Shown here in pieces: positions 3,325-25,654 of a stretch of DNA of 37,168 nt. Within the stretch, counting starts at the first letter, position 1. Every line of letters starts with the position of its first letter. The translations under genes were made by a program, and so were the position numbers. The DNA is taken from contig JAGMBO010000008.1 of the NCBI GenBank assembly GCA_023129715.1, positions 122,340-159,507 on the forward strand, written 5' to 3'. Under the pieces are notes generated by a model that did no database searches, was not told where the DNA came from, and saw nothing but the letters and a program-made list of their open reading frames with translations. The stretch is from Candidatus Eiseniibacteriota bacterium. Its GTDB lineage: Bacteria; Eisenbacteria; RBG-16-71-46; CAIMUX01; WJJG01.

Positions 3325-3459
3325 CGATCCTCGCGGCGGGTGCGGCCTGGTAGAAAGACATGCCGGTCAGGGGTCGCCGCGCTGCCCGGCAGGCGGGACA
3401 CGAGGGCGATCGGAGGTGGGCGCTCGACACCCCGCCTCGGGAGTCAAGCCAATGCCGCG

Positions 3460-3546
3460 CCAGTTGAGCAACGAACTCAAGCGCCAGGCCGGTTGAGCGA
3501 CGGGCCCAAGCGCCGGGCCGGTTGAGCGACGAGCCCAAACGCCGGG
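3460..3546. repeat. 29-bp direct repeat, three copies
   Basis: Three head-to-tail 29-bp units (3460-3488, 3489-3517, 3518-3546) share the pattern GTTGAGCgACg..CCcAAgCGCCgGG. The first copy is the most diverged. The array fills the gap between the SMR-like gene and the start of the YifB gene. Confidence 0.85.
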
Positions 3547-3611
3547 CCACGGGGGAGCCGGATGACCAAGGAAGCCCCTCACCCGCGTGCGCGGCCCGGG
3601 CGCCCCCAGCC

Positions 3612-4802: not shown

Positions 4803-6314
4803 ATGGAGGTCATCCTCGCCGGATACAACCTCGACTGCGAGCTGATCTCCCGCTTGGGCCCGGCGGCAAAGGTCCCTGAGTCCACCGCAGCCGGCGAGCC
4901 CCCGACGACCGATGCCCTGACACCCGAGACCCTCTCCGCCGCCTACGCCCGCATCAGCCGCGATCCCCGCCCGATCCCCGAGCTGCGTCGTGATGCGCGC
5001 CGCGATGTCGCCCGCGCCCGCCAGTCCAACCGGAGGATCATCTTCGACTTCGGCCATGCCAGTGTCGCCGAGCACGCCGTCTTCAACTTCGACATCCTCG
5101 GTCTCTCGCGCCTGGCGGTCGAGGCGTTCGAAGCCGCGCGCCTCGGCTCCTACACGGAGAAGTCCCAACGCTACATCCTCCTGGGACGCGACGTGCTTCT
5201 GCCGACCGAGATTGCCGGCACCGCCCACGAGGCCACGTTCCTGGCCTTGATGAAGGAACAGCAGGAGGCCTACCACAGCGCCTACGATTCCCTGGCTCGC
5301 CACTACGCCGAGACCCGGCCGGAGGCCTGGGCCGAACCCCACGGCCGGCGCGATCTCGAGGGGGCGGCCAAGGAAGATGCACGCTACTTCCTCGCGCTGG
5401 CGACGACCGGCCAGCTCGGCGCGACGCTCAACGCGCGCATGGTCGAGGCGAGCATCCGTCGGCTCGCCGCCGATCCGTTGGCCGAGGCCCGCGAGCTCGC
5501 CGAGCGGCTGCATCGCGCCGTAGAGTCCGTCGCCCCCTCCCTCGTGCGCCACGCCGACCCGACTCCCTACCGCGCGCAGACTCCAGCGGCACTGGCGGAG
5601 TTGCGAGATGCCCTCTGCCCGGATGGCGCTACACCAGGCGCCAAGGTACCCGCCGGTGTGCCAGGAAATGTGCACCTGATCGCGGTCACCCCCGCTGCGG
5701 AGAAGCACCTGCTGACCGGCCTGCTCCATGGGTGCGGGGGGATCTCCTGGGAGGGAGCTGCGGCGCGCGCAGCCGGCCTGGATGCGCATGGTCGCCGGGC
5801 GTTGATCACCGAGAGCCTGCGGCGTCTGTCTGCTCACGAGGCGCCCATGCGGGTCTTCGAGCTGGTCGAATTGACCTACGAGCTCATCGTCAGCGCGAGT
5901 TGCTTCGCTCAGCTCAAGCGCCATCGCATGGCGACGCTGCTGCCGCAGCCGTACGAGCCCGATCTGGGCGTCACGCTTCCGCCGGTCTTTGATTCACTGG
6001 GGCTCACGAAGCCGTTCACCGAAATGCGGAGCCACGCCGAGGCCATCTATGCCGACATCCGGCGTGTCCACCCTCATGCGGCCCCCTATGCGCTGACCAA
6101 CGCCCACCGGCGACGGGTGATCTTCAAGACCAACCTCCGCGAGCTCTATCACATCGCCCGCCTGCGCCTCGATCAGCACGCGCAGTGGGATGTCCGCGCG
6201 ATGGCCGAGGCGATGGTCGCGCAGGCGCGCGCGCGGCTGCCGCTGGCAACACTGCTGGCCGCGGGCAAGGATGCGTTCGATGAGACGCGGGGACGGGTTC
6301 TCGGGAATCCCTAG
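4803..6314 (+). CDS. thyX: Tandem-domain FAD-dependent thymidylate synthase (ThyX)
   Basis: ThyX methylates dUMP to dTMP using methylenetetrahydrofolate and FAD. This protein has 503 residues, about twice the usual ThyX, and contains two ThyX-like domains. Domain 1 (about 1-255) has GHASVAEH at 84-91, the substrate-loop part SYTEKSQRY at 116-124 and NAR at 210-212, but the RHR of the ThyX motif reads AAR. Domain 2 (about 285-503) has an intact RHR (373-375) and RLRLDQHAQW (453-462), whose Arg455 matches the key arginine R174 of the Thermotoga enzyme, but lacks the S..E.S.RY loop. Each half keeps what the other has lost, which suggests an active site shared between halves. ATG 4803 begins the conserved region. 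Long two-domain ThyX proteins are known in several phyla. No thyA is in the window. Confidence 0.85.
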   Translation: MEVILAGYNLDCELISRLGPAAKVPESTAAGEPPTTDALTPETLSAAYARISRDPRPIPELRRDARRDVARARQSNRRIIFDFGHASVAEHAVFNFDILGLSRLAVEAFEAARLGSYTEKSQRYILLGRDVLLPTEIAGTAHEATFLALMKEQQEAYHSAYDSLARHYAETRPEAWAEPHGRRDLEGAAKEDARYFLALATTGQLGATLNARMVEASIRRLAADPLAEARELAERLHRAVESVAPSLVRHADPTPYRAQTPAALAELRDALCPDGATPGAKVPAGVPGNVHLIAVTPAAEKHLLTGLLHGCGGISWEGAAARAAGLDAHGRRALITESLRRLSAHEAPMRVFELVELTYELIVSASCFAQLKRHRMATLLPQPYEPDLGVTLPPVFDSLGLTKPFTEMRSHAEAIYADIRRVHPHAAPYALTNAHRRRVIFKTNLRELYHIARLRLDQHAQWDVRAMAEAMVAQARARLPLATLLAAGKDAFDETRGRVLGNP

Positions 6315-6319
6315 CCGAT

Positions 6320-6447
6320 AGCTGACGTCGCTGCGGCAACCTACGGCTGATGCCGCTGCGGCAACCTGATGGCTGACACCGCTGCGGCAACCTACGGCTG
6401 ATGCCGCTGCGGCAACCTGATGGCTGACACCGCTGCGGCAACCCGAT
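6320..6447. repeat. 25/26-bp direct repeat, five copies
   Basis: Five units built on GGCTGAtgCCGCTGCGGCAA (6320-6344, 6345-6370, 6371-6395, 6396-6421, 6422-6447) follow the thyX stop. Two subtypes alternate, one ending CCTAC and one ending CCTGAT, so the array also reads as a 51-bp repeat. It sits between two convergent genes. Confidence 0.9.
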
Positions 6448-6475
6448 GGCCGGCGGCGGCGCGGCACTCCAATCG

Positions 6476-10248: not shown

Positions 10249-11442
10249 AGCTTCCCGGCTCGACAAGTGGTCCCAGCCCCCGGCGAGTGGCCGCCGCGTT
10301 CCCTCCGCCGTGCGCAGTGTCACCTCCGGCGGGCCGGCACTCAATACCCCAACCGGGGAAACCCGCAATCCGATGATATCCCGCATGGCGAAGACCAAGT
10401 CGGCGCACTCGGGCGCAACGGCGAAGAGCAGCTCGTAGTCATCGCTCGCGCCCAGCATCCAGGCGAGCGGGTCGCGATCGAGAAGCGCGGCCAGTTGGGT
10501 CAGGTCGGGATCGACGGGCAGAAAGACCTCCTCGATCACCGCACCCAGGCCACTCTCGTCGCAGAGATGGCGAAGGTCGCCGGCCAGCCCGTCGCTCGTG
10601 TCGATCGCCGCTGTCGCCAGCCGGTTCTCGAGCAGATAGCGCCCGGCGGCAAGCCGCGCCCGCGGGGCGGCGAGGGCCCGGCGGAAGCGCTCGCGCAACT
10701 CAGCGGGCGGCGCATCCTCCTCCAGCCGCTCGGCGAGCCTGCGCCACACGGCGGGATCGGCATCGAGGCTTGCCAGCGCCGCCGCCGCGCGTCCGGGCGC
10801 GCCGGTGACGAAAAGCACATCTCCGGGGCGGGCCCCATCCCGGCGCAGGGCCATCCCCTGCTCGACCCGCCCGATCAGGGTGACATCGATGAGCAGATCG
10901 TCCGCGGCGGAGATGTTCCCGCCCAGCACCGCCGCGCCGTGGGCGCCGAGCCCGGCGACAAAGCCGTCGAAGAACTCATCGAGCACCGCCAGCGGCAAGC
11001 CAGGGGGCAGCCCGAGCGAGAGCAACGCACCGACGGGCAATCCCCCCATGGCGGCAACATCGCTCAGATTGACCGCGGCCGCCCGCGCACCCAGTTCCCG
11101 GGGGGTTAGCCATCGGCGTTGGAAGTGGCGCCCCTCGATCTGCATGTCACAGGTCAGCAGGAGATCCCATCCGGGCTCGGGAGTGAAGATGGCCGCATCG
11201 TCACCGATCCCGTGCGACCCAGCGGCGGATGATCCCGAAACCGTGGTCGTGCTCGCACCGGCGGATGATCCCGAAACCGTGGTCGTGCTCACACCCGCGG
11301 GCGCGCCCGTCCCCGTGGCCGGGTCCGGCGTCGATCCCAGTCGCCGCCGGAAGCGCTCGATGAGGCCGAATTCCCCGACGTCGCGAACCGTCGGCTCGCC
11401 CTGCCAGACCCGCGGATCCACTGCGCCGCCGTCGGCCGTCAT
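10243..11442 (-). CDS. thiL: Thiamine-monophosphate kinase
   Basis: ThiL phosphorylates thiamine monophosphate to the active cofactor thiamine diphosphate. The family motifs are present: GIGDDAAI at 78-85, CDMQIEGRHF around 98-107, NLSDVAAMGG at 125-134, DTSDGLAGDL and GASDDYELLF further on. The protein has 399 residues, longer than the typical 320-340. The extra length is mainly a Ser/Thr/Gly/Ala-rich insert at about 37-76, just before GIGDD, built from two copies of STTTVSGSSA encoded by a perfect-length 36-bp repeat. The ATG at 11442 follows GGGAGAATAGCGAG and overlaps the stop of the last of three tandem mini-ORFs. It forms a same-strand series with thiE and thiD. Confidence 0.93.
   Translation of the reverse strand: MTADGGAVDPRVWQGEPTVRDVGEFGLIERFRRRLGSTPDPATGTGAPAGVSTTTVSGSSAGASTTTVSGSSAAGSHGIGDDAAIFTPEPGWDLLLTCDMQIEGRHFQRRWLTPRELGARAAAVNLSDVAAMGGLPVGALLSLGLPPGLPLAVLDEFFDGFVAGLGAHGAAVLGGNISAADDLLIDVTLIGRVEQGMALRRDGARPGDVLFVTGAPGRAAAALASLDADPAVWRRLAERLEEDAPPAELRERFRRALAAPRARLAAGRYLLENRLATAAIDTSDGLAGDLRHLCDESGLGAVIEEVFLPVDPDLTQLAALLDRDPLAWMLGASDDYELLFAVAPECADLVFAMRDIIGLRVSPVGVLSAGPPEVTLRTAEGTRRPLAGGWDHLSSREAQ
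11225..11296 (-). repeat. 36-bp in-frame duplication inside thiL
   Basis: Two adjacent 36-bp units (11225-11260 and 11261-11296), nearly identical, each encode a STTTVSGSSAGA-like 12-residue segment in the N-terminal loop of ThiL. The unit length keeps the reading frame. Confidence 0.9.
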
Positions 11443-11486
11443 CTCGCTATTCTCCCAGCGCCCAATCGACTGCCTCGCACCGTCAT
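11439..11486 (-). CDS. Mini-ORF 3 of the thiE-thiL chain (15 residues)
   Basis: Starts at ATG 11486, encodes MTVRGSRLGAGRIAR, and stops at TGA 11439-11441 overlapping the thiL ATG (ATGA). It has its own purine-rich ribosome site in the preceding repeat. Product of the 44-bp repeat; expression is unproven. Confidence 0.35.
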   Translation of the reverse strand: MTVRGSRLGAGRIAR

Positions 11487-11530
11487 CTCGCTACTCCCCC
11501 GGCGCCCAATCGACCGCCTCGCGCCGTCAT
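11483..11530 (-). CDS. Mini-ORF 2 of the thiE-thiL chain (15 residues)
   Basis: Starts at ATG 11530, encodes MTARGGRLGAGGVAR, and its TGA overlaps the start of mini-ORF 3 in an ATGA. Differs from its neighbours at a few positions only. Confidence 0.35.
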   Translation of the reverse strand: MTARGGRLGAGGVAR

Positions 11531-11574
11531 CGCGCTACTCTCCCGGCGCCCAATCGACCGCCTCGCACCGTCAT
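11527..11574 (-). CDS. Mini-ORF 1 of the thiE-thiL chain (15 residues)
   Basis: Starts at ATG 11574, four bases after the thiE stop, encodes MTVRGGRLGAGRVAR, and ends in a TGA overlapping the start of mini-ORF 2. The thiE tail supplies GGGGGAG as a ribosome site seven bases before the ATG. Confidence 0.35.
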   Translation of the reverse strand: MTVRGGRLGAGRVAR

Positions 11575-11578
11575 CTCG

Positions 11579-12214
11579 CTACTCCCCCAGCGCCCGGTCG
11601 ATCGCCTCGCGCAGCGCGCGCGCGGCGGCAGCCGGTTCCTCGCTTTGGGACACCGCACTGATCACCGCCAGACCATGAACGCCGGCCCCCAGGATCGCGG
11701 GGGCCGTCTCGATGGCAATGCCTCCGATCGCGACCATCGGAACCTCGAGGACAGCGACGATGGGCTTGACGCCCTCGGCCCCGAGCACCGGCCCGGCGTC
11801 GGCCTTGCTCGCCGTCGCGTAGACCGGCCCGAGGCCGACGTAGTCGGCGCCGGCCCGCGCGCCGGCCTCCGCTTCGGCGAGCGTCCGCGCCGAGGCGCCG
11901 ATGATCCGGTCGGGACCGAGTAGTTCGCGGGCGAGGCTGACGGGGAAGTCGTCGCGGCCGAGGTGGACCCCATGGGCGTCACTCGCCAAGGCGACATCGA
12001 CACGATCGTTGACGATCAGGGATGCGCCCGCCCGCCGGCACAGGTCGGTCAGGGCGCGGGCGATCTCAATCTGCTTGCGCGTCGATGCCTGCTTCTCACG
12101 GAACTGGATCACATCGGCGCCGCCCTCCAGGGCCATCCGGGCGACTTCGAGGTGGCTCCAGCGATCCTGGTGGATGACATCGGTGATCACGTGTAGGCGC
12201 CCGATGTTTCTCAT
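11579..12214 (-). CDS. thiE: Thiamine-phosphate synthase
   Basis: ThiE joins HMP diphosphate with the thiazole phosphate carboxylate to give thiamine monophosphate. The 211-residue TIM-barrel protein shows IQFREK at 36-41, VNDRVDVA at 68-75, HGVHLGRDD at 81-89, IIGASART at 104-111, GLGPVYAT at 127-134, AIGGI at 162-166 and GLAVISAV at 181-188, covering the diphosphate, Mg and substrate sites of the family. Its ATG overlaps the thiD stop by four bases (ATGA), so the two are translationally coupled. Its 3' end is the source of the 44-bp repeats that separate it from thiL. Confidence 0.95.
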   Translation of the reverse strand: MRNIGRLHVITDVIHQDRWSHLEVARMALEGGADVIQFREKQASTRKQIEIARALTDLCRRAGASLIVNDRVDVALASDAHGVHLGRDDFPVSLARELLGPDRIIGASARTLAEAEAGARAGADYVGLGPVYATASKADAGPVLGAEGVKPIVAVLEVPMVAIGGIAIETAPAILGAGVHGLAVISAVSQSEEPAAAARALREAIDRALGE

Positions 12215-16473: not shown

Positions 16474-16515
16474 GCGCATCCGCCCGGCCCGCCCGCGGTG
16501 AGCGACTGAACTCGG

Positions 16516-16660
16516 TTGACCGGGGGGAAGCCGCTGAGCCCGGTTGACCGATGGGAGCGGCTGAGCCCGATTGACCCGAGGGGACGGCTGAGCCCGATTG
16601 ACCCGAGGGGAACGGCTGAGCCCGATTGACCCGAGGGGACGGCTGAGCCCGATTGACCGG
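16516..16660. repeat. 27/28-bp direct repeat, six copies, each with a TTGACC
   Basis: TTGACC occurs at 16516, 16544, 16571, 16598, 16626 and 16653 (spacing 28, 27, 27, 28, 27). The consensus unit is GGCTGAGCCCGATTGACCCG plus AGGGGAC. The last copy supplies the -35 element of the yihY promoter. Confidence 0.92.
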
Positions 16661-18217: not shown

Positions 18218-18357
18218 CGCCCGGAACCCGCGGGACCCTCATCCGGGCTCCTCGCCCGGAACCCCCGGGATCCTCCGCCGGAACCCTCGCCCGGAACCCC
18301 CGGGACCCTCATCCGGGCTCCTCGCCCGGAACCCCTAGGATCCTCCCCCCAGGCCGG
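18218..18357. repeat. 35-bp direct repeat, four copies
   Basis: Units at 18218-18252, 18253-18287, 18288-18322 and 18323-18357 share CGCCCGGAACCCcCGGGAcC at their start. Copies 1 and 3 are almost identical; copies 2 and 4 share GATCCTCC, so the array may have grown as a 70-bp double unit. Confidence 0.92.
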
Positions 18358-25276: not shown

Positions 25277-25654
25277 GTCTCCTCCGGCCATGCTGGATTC
25301 CCGTATTGGCGCCGGAGCGCGCCGCGAGCAACCATCGTCGCCAGCACCCATCGCCACCAGCAACCATCGTCGCGAGCAATCAGCGCCACGAGCAATCAGC
25401 GCCGCGAGCAACCATCGTCGCCAGCACCCATCGCCGCAAGGGGCGACCGGTCTGTCTGCGGATGTAACGCCCACGATAGCAGCGCAGTTCAACGGACGGG
25501 CCGAGAATGGTCGAGAGAATCGAACTTTCCCGACGGCGAGGCGTTATCGAGTCAGGGGGCATCCAACTTCGCTCCCCAGGAGCTACAAGACGGCATGGCC
25601 GGGGGGCACGAAACGATGCAGACACCCGGCCCGGGCACTCGCTAAGGTCTTGCC
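25277..25654. other. 378-bp divergent gap between the lipoprotein and sigma-factor genes
   Basis: No convincing gene. The left part contains a diverged copy (25302-25337) of the lipoprotein gene's own 5' coding segment (25217-25252) and then a 16-bp repeat array (25326-25437). The right part (25438-25654) should hold both divergent promoters, but I see no pair of elements strong enough to name. Confidence 0.5.
25326..25437. repeat. 16-bp direct repeat, seven copies
   Basis: Seven consecutive 16-bp units, variants of GAGCAACCATCGTCGC, CAGCACCCATCGCCAC and GAGCAATCAGCGCCAC. The block gagcaaccatcgtcgc+cagcacccatcgcc occurs twice, 80 bp (five units) apart. Confidence 0.92.

Follow-up and report, generated by a model that had tools for sequence, protein, structure and literature searches.

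Single-domain flavin-dependent thymidylate synthases (ThyX or FDTS; TIGR02170, PF02511), among them TM0449 of T. maritima and ThyX of M. tuberculosis, are the best described relatives of the protein studied here. An initial annotation of the DNA had noted that each active site of the ThyX homotetramer draws residues from several chains, and this agrees with the structure of M. tuberculosis ThyX, in which three subunits contribute to a site: subunit A provides Arg95-His96-Arg97 and Arg199, subunit B provides Ser71 and Arg190, and subunit C provides Arg87, Ser105, Arg107 and Tyr108 (PMC6514825). In T. maritima ThyX, His53 sits on the third monomer (PMC11940539). Canonical positions are here those of T. 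maritima ThyX, and the equivalents to the M. tuberculosis residues were taken from alignments, in which the subunit A residues correspond to positions 78-80 and 174, the subunit B residues to 55 and 165, and the subunit C residues to 70, 88, 90 and 91, respectively. Arg147 is presumably part of the subunit C set and has been grouped with it. All solved ThyX chains that were found by sequence are single-domain proteins of 216-270 aa. A duplicated ThyX from Chloroflexi was recorded in 2009 by Valas and Bourne, who referred to it as uncharacterised (PMC3224940).

The window analyzed in this study is a stretch of 37,168 nucleotides from a genome of Candidatus Eiseniibacteriota, and it contains a gene for a ThyX with two domains in tandem, D1 and D2 (Table 1). 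The ATG at 4803 is located closely downstream of an upstream stop codon, and the N-terminus that it predicts is common to the relatives; residues are numbered with Met1 at this base. A Pfam search with the 503-aa protein assigned two stretches of it to a single family, Thy1 (E = 6.6e-53), and the protein scored 119.5 bits against the NCBIfam model TIGR02170 (thyX), which is above the cut-off of 87.9. A Foldseek search with the AlphaFold model recovered ThyX chains from T. maritima and M. tuberculosis (best E 4.8e-7), as expected for a ThyX fold. The presence of two Thy1 domains on one chain identifies the protein as a duplicated ThyX, and this holds in 87 window-type homologues. All of the motifs quoted in the initial annotation were located at the residue numbers given there. 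A 26-base tandem array of about 5 copies (6317-6450) starts three bases past the thyX stop codon, and arrays of other repeat units are found in the window at 3454-3548, 11426-11612, 16492-16658, 18218-18335 and 25320-25437.

Table 1. Features of the tandem ThyX gene in the window. Fractions are counts among 87 aligned window-type tandems.
Feature	Position	Strand	Remarks
Tandem ThyX gene	4803..6314	+	503 aa plus stop; ATG start backed by the kept N-terminus M(K/E)VILAG
D1, first Thy1 domain	4908..5588	+	Residues 36-262; Pfam Thy1 40-246
D1 HASVAEH (85-91)	5055..5075	+	H85/S87/E90 = canonical His53/Ser55/Glu58, 87/87 each; putative third-subunit role
D1 R103	5109..5111	+	Canonical 70 = M. tuberculosis Arg87, dUMP; 87/87
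D1 AAR (111-113)	5133..5141	+	Replaces RHR; FAD residues Arg78, His79 lost, Arg80 (R113) kept
D1 dUMP loop SYTEKSQRY (116-124)	5148..5174	+	E119, S121, R123, Y124, 87/87
D1 R194	5382..5384	+	Canonical Arg147, 87/87; replaced in D2 by P428 or others
D1 NAR (210-212)	5430..5438	+	Canonical Asn163-Arg165; N210, R212, 87/87
D1 R220	5460..5462	+	Possible Arg174 counterpart, moved by a one-residue deletion; Arg in 86/87; aligns with D2 R455
Linker D1-D2	5589..5657	+	Residues 263-285; length and sequence vary among homologues
D2, second Thy1 domain	5658..6311	+	Residues 286-503; second Thy1 match
D2 QLKRHR (370-375)	5910..5927	+	FAD residues Arg78-His79-Arg80 kept; R373, H374, R375, 87/87; Q370, 86/87
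D2 replacement loop MATLLPQPYEPDL (376-388)	5928..5966	+	S..E.S.RY loop gone; other loop Q-x-Y-x-P conserved
D2 NLR (444-446)	6132..6140	+	R446, 87/87; N444, 78/87
D2 RLRLDQHAQW (453-462)	6159..6188	+	R455 = canonical Arg174; R455, D457, Q461, W462, 87/87

Conservation was counted in an alignment of 87 full-length window-type tandems, the window protein included. The window protein bears out the description of D1 as a domain with the SYTEKSQRY loop and AAR instead of RHR. The conserved loop residues E119, S121, R123 and Y124 are equivalent to canonical positions 86, 88, 90 and 91. In D1 of the homologues, position 78 is mainly K (with R, H or A in the others), and F and E predominate at positions 79 and 75, respectively. 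The serine in the HASVAEH segment has its counterpart on subunit B in M. tuberculosis ThyX (PMC6514825). A clean loss of Arg174 from D1 was considered and dropped: between Asn163 and the next APS motif, D1 has one residue fewer than single-domain ThyX proteins, owing to a deletion in the helix, and since a one-residue gap puts R220 on Arg174, we do not claim that this residue has been lost.

D2 was likewise seen to keep RHR and RLRLDQHAQW and to lack the S..E.S.RY loop. The canonical residue is gone from D2 at positions 70, 86, 88, 90 and 147 in the window-type homologues, so that the residues of the loop half that are missing also include Arg70 (A365 in the window protein), Glu86 (P381) and Arg147 (P428). 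The loop found there instead is conserved in its own right (Y384 in 87/87, Q382 in 81/87 and P386 in 83/87), and the invariant Tyr384 may be located near the position of Tyr91. R350 and E353 are also among the invariant residues of D2. NAR had been listed as a feature of D1, where it is indeed present, but it is not exclusive to this domain, as D2 keeps NxR with N444 and R446. The comparison of D1 with D2 is affected by gaps at D2 positions 53-55, 86-91 and 174, for which the printed alignment and the counts within each class were used.

The motif RHR...S..E.S.RY is absent from any one stretch of the protein, with RHR in D2 only and the loop in D1 only, and it is complete only when D1 and D2 are taken together. 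D1 carries the residues with subunit B and C roles and D2 those with the subunit A role, nearly invariantly in the 87 homologues, of which 85 pass a joint test of the D1 and D2 residues. This confirms that the pattern of complementary loss is not due to chance. A pseudogene was ruled out by the single open frame and by the role residues, which are retained in 87/87 sequences across phyla. More divergent tandem classes, some of them encoded by plasmids and phages, show this core split in the identical order, and in all tandems compared the loop half comes first and the RHR half second. In the class from Euzebya, Miltoncostaea and Parabacteroides, and in one additional tandem (L012), Arg165 is gone from D1 and retained in D2; in the Euzebya and Parabacteroides proteins D1 also lacks His53, and D2 retains Asn163/Arg165. 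The role of the third subunit is thus not constant between classes.

We infer the quaternary structure, stoichiometry and activity from the sequence and the published ThyX structure, and assign a probability of roughly 0.82 to the reading that the protein is the two-domain flavin-dependent thymidylate synthase of the cell and acts as a dimer of the fused chain, in which two of the sites are complete and the other two are vacated. Two tandem chains would assemble as a pseudo-tetramer of two D1 and two D2 domains. In a complete site, D2 would contact FAD with Arg78-His79-Arg80 and activate dUMP with Arg174. The dUMP residues Arg70, Arg147 and the Ser88/Arg90/Tyr91 loop would come from one D1, and the FAD/folate residues His53, Ser55, Asn163 and Arg165 from the other. 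Most ligand residues would be missing from the two reciprocal sites, which would hence be dead or repurposed, and the assembly would have two working sites rather than four. A pseudo-dimer with asymmetric subunits and half as many complete sites had already been proposed in the initial annotation, and the proposal is supported by the finding that the residues lost from D1 and D2 fall on different subunits (PMC6514825). Because Arg78 and His79 are located on one subunit and Arg70, Ser88 and Arg90 on another (PMC6514825), the combination of D1 with D2 would restore a site, and the reciprocal pairing would probably be dead. The conservation of His53, Ser55, Asn163 and Arg165 in D1 suggests that the third contributor to the site is the second D1.

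There is also counter-evidence, in that D1 retains Arg80 and the shifted R220, and D2 retains Asn163/Arg165 and the invariant Tyr384, which means that the stripping of the reciprocal sites is incomplete. If the vacated positions had been rebuilt by other residues, such as K/F at 111-112 in most D1s and Q382/Y384 and R350 in D2, all four sites could be active and the enzyme would have two types of site. R113 and R220 in D1 would fit such an arrangement, as would the loop that is peculiar to D2, Q382-x-Y384-x-P386, and the invariant R350, E353 and R446. However, the reciprocal site is jointly without Ser88, Arg90, Arg70, Arg147 and Arg78/His79, and residues 111-112 of D1 are variable among homologues, unlike an active site, which makes four active sites very unlikely. 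Alternatively, the reciprocal sites might have been repurposed, e.g., for binding of NADPH or folate or for regulation, beside two normal sites. The D2 replacement loop and the K-F-R found in most D1s show conservation and not random change, as would be anticipated for a second function, but this conservation may reflect packing only, and we regard repurposing as improbable; it would be compatible with two complete sites and add to that explanation.

With respect to the dimer with two complete sites, an AlphaFold2 model of a single tandem chain, based on 83 homologues, contains two well-formed domains (pLDDT 84.2, pTM 0.82). The N-terminal 80 residues of D1 and the active-site loop residues 122-124 were modelled with low confidence; this would fit regions that are completed by another chain or by a ligand, but is no evidence for such completion.

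We also searched for other enzymes of thymidylate synthesis. In the window genome, which is 95.9% complete, neither another Thy1/ThyX protein nor ThyA was found. A second complete thyX or thyA had been named, together with failed complementation, as a finding that would speak against the proposal, and a role of the tandem as a back-up gene beside either of them can be ruled out for this genome. In a sample of 47 genomes from the phylum, ThyA was found in one genome, which is without ThyX, and in none of the tandem-bearing genomes. Outside the phylum, 34 tandem genomes were searched: ThyA was identified in two of them (one a weak partial match) and an extra ThyX in four, and in the remaining 28 no synthase other than the tandem was found. 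No DHFR scored above the cut-off in the 47 genomes of the phylum, as expected since ThyX releases THF directly. The window genome also encodes a thymidine kinase, so salvage is possible and de novo synthesis need not be essential. As the sole synthase found, the tandem is indirectly indicated to be the thymidylate synthase of the cell. A shift from thymidylate synthesis to methylation of another uracil compound has a precedent in PolB, a ThyX relative that is reported to act on UMP (PMC5003785), but most tandem genomes, including the window genome, have no second thymidylate synthase, and D1 and D2 together hold the full set of dUMP/FAD residues, for which reasons we consider such a shift very improbable.

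Full-length window-type tandems were identified in 6 of the 47 phylum genomes, namely the window genome, three genomes of the same family and two of the same order, and in three more genomes the gene is cut at contig ends. The tandems L004-L006 from the window's family agree in profile score and ORF length with the named Eisenbacteria loci L073-L075, which places the group in Candidatus Eisenbacteria. Other tandem classes in the phylum are found in G007 (one class) and in G024 and G031 (a third class). Two tandems from family f7 of the phylum (L060 and L061) represent a third, very divergent type with the loop-first, RHR-second split. A 399-aa ThyX-like frame with an unusual layout (L062) is present in G043, which has a normal ThyX elsewhere in its genome. 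A scan of genome contigs recovered at least 544 relatives, of which the best 80 all encode full-length tandems and belong to the Syntrophales, other Deltaproteobacteria, Aminicenantes, Omnitrophota, Elusimicrobia, WOR-3, Calditrichota, Delongbacteria, Myxococcota and other groups. Window-type tandems with 40-46% identity were also found on four IMG/VR viral contigs of 87-470 kb (L153-L156), and may thus be carried by large phages. More distant tandems were identified on plasmids of Euzebya, Miltoncostaea, Parabacteroides, Bacillus and Paenibacillus and in phage Tunturi_5; the one from Parabacteroides distasonis (L066) is on a 278-kb circular plasmid record.

In a phylogenetic tree of 70 rows with 28 D1s and 28 D2s, 26 of the D1s group in one clade and 26 of the D2s in another, with support of 100/99 each. 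The phylogeny of the two halves, a check proposed in the initial annotation, hence places D1s and D2s in separate clades, with the exception of the family-f7 type (L060 and L061), whose two halves fall outside both clades on long branches. The clustering by position indicates that those classes derive from one fusion and that the halves diverged once, before the classes split, and have remained joined since; by this topology, most tandems share one ancient fusion. A single clade for all D1s (AU p 0.30) or for all D2s (AU p 0.42), as would follow from a single origin of all tandems, was not rejected, with long branches for L060 and L061. The family-f7 type may be an independent fusion with the same complementary losses in the same order. 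An extension of this reading, in which the tandems are a separate, widespread and obligately asymmetric class of ThyX that has arisen more than once and has two repurposed sites beside two catalytic ones, is in our view unlikely.

These results suggest that a sizeable share of the bacterial ThyX diversity would be a pseudo-heteromeric enzyme with halves unable to work alone. The tandems provide a natural test system for the contributions of individual subunits to a three-chain site, and for the question of whether a tetramer ever needs all four of its sites. The tandem is labelled an ordinary ThyX by annotation pipelines, and a motif check confined to one stretch would wrongly score each half as degenerate.

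Compared to the single-domain ThyX proteins, the tandem shares the fold and the Thy1 profile, at about 20-23% identity to the solved chains in the Foldseek alignments, but consists of two fused domains that are each without part of the site, equals the dUMP/FAD residue set only with both halves combined, and would be expected to have two sites per assembly, not four. The plasmid and phage tandems are annotated as 'FAD-dependent thymidylate synthase' and have an equal two-domain layout and core split, with about 26-31% identity to the window protein where matched, but differ from the window type in the third-subunit residues in some classes. No description of complementary loss in a tandem ThyX was found in the literature, a weak negative result as subscription papers were mostly outside the search. 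The passages on the duplicated ThyX in the Chloroflexi report, with which the comparison is by description, do not mention it (PMC3224940). The duplication of ThyX was thus already known (PMC3224940), and what appears to be new here is the complementary split between the two halves.
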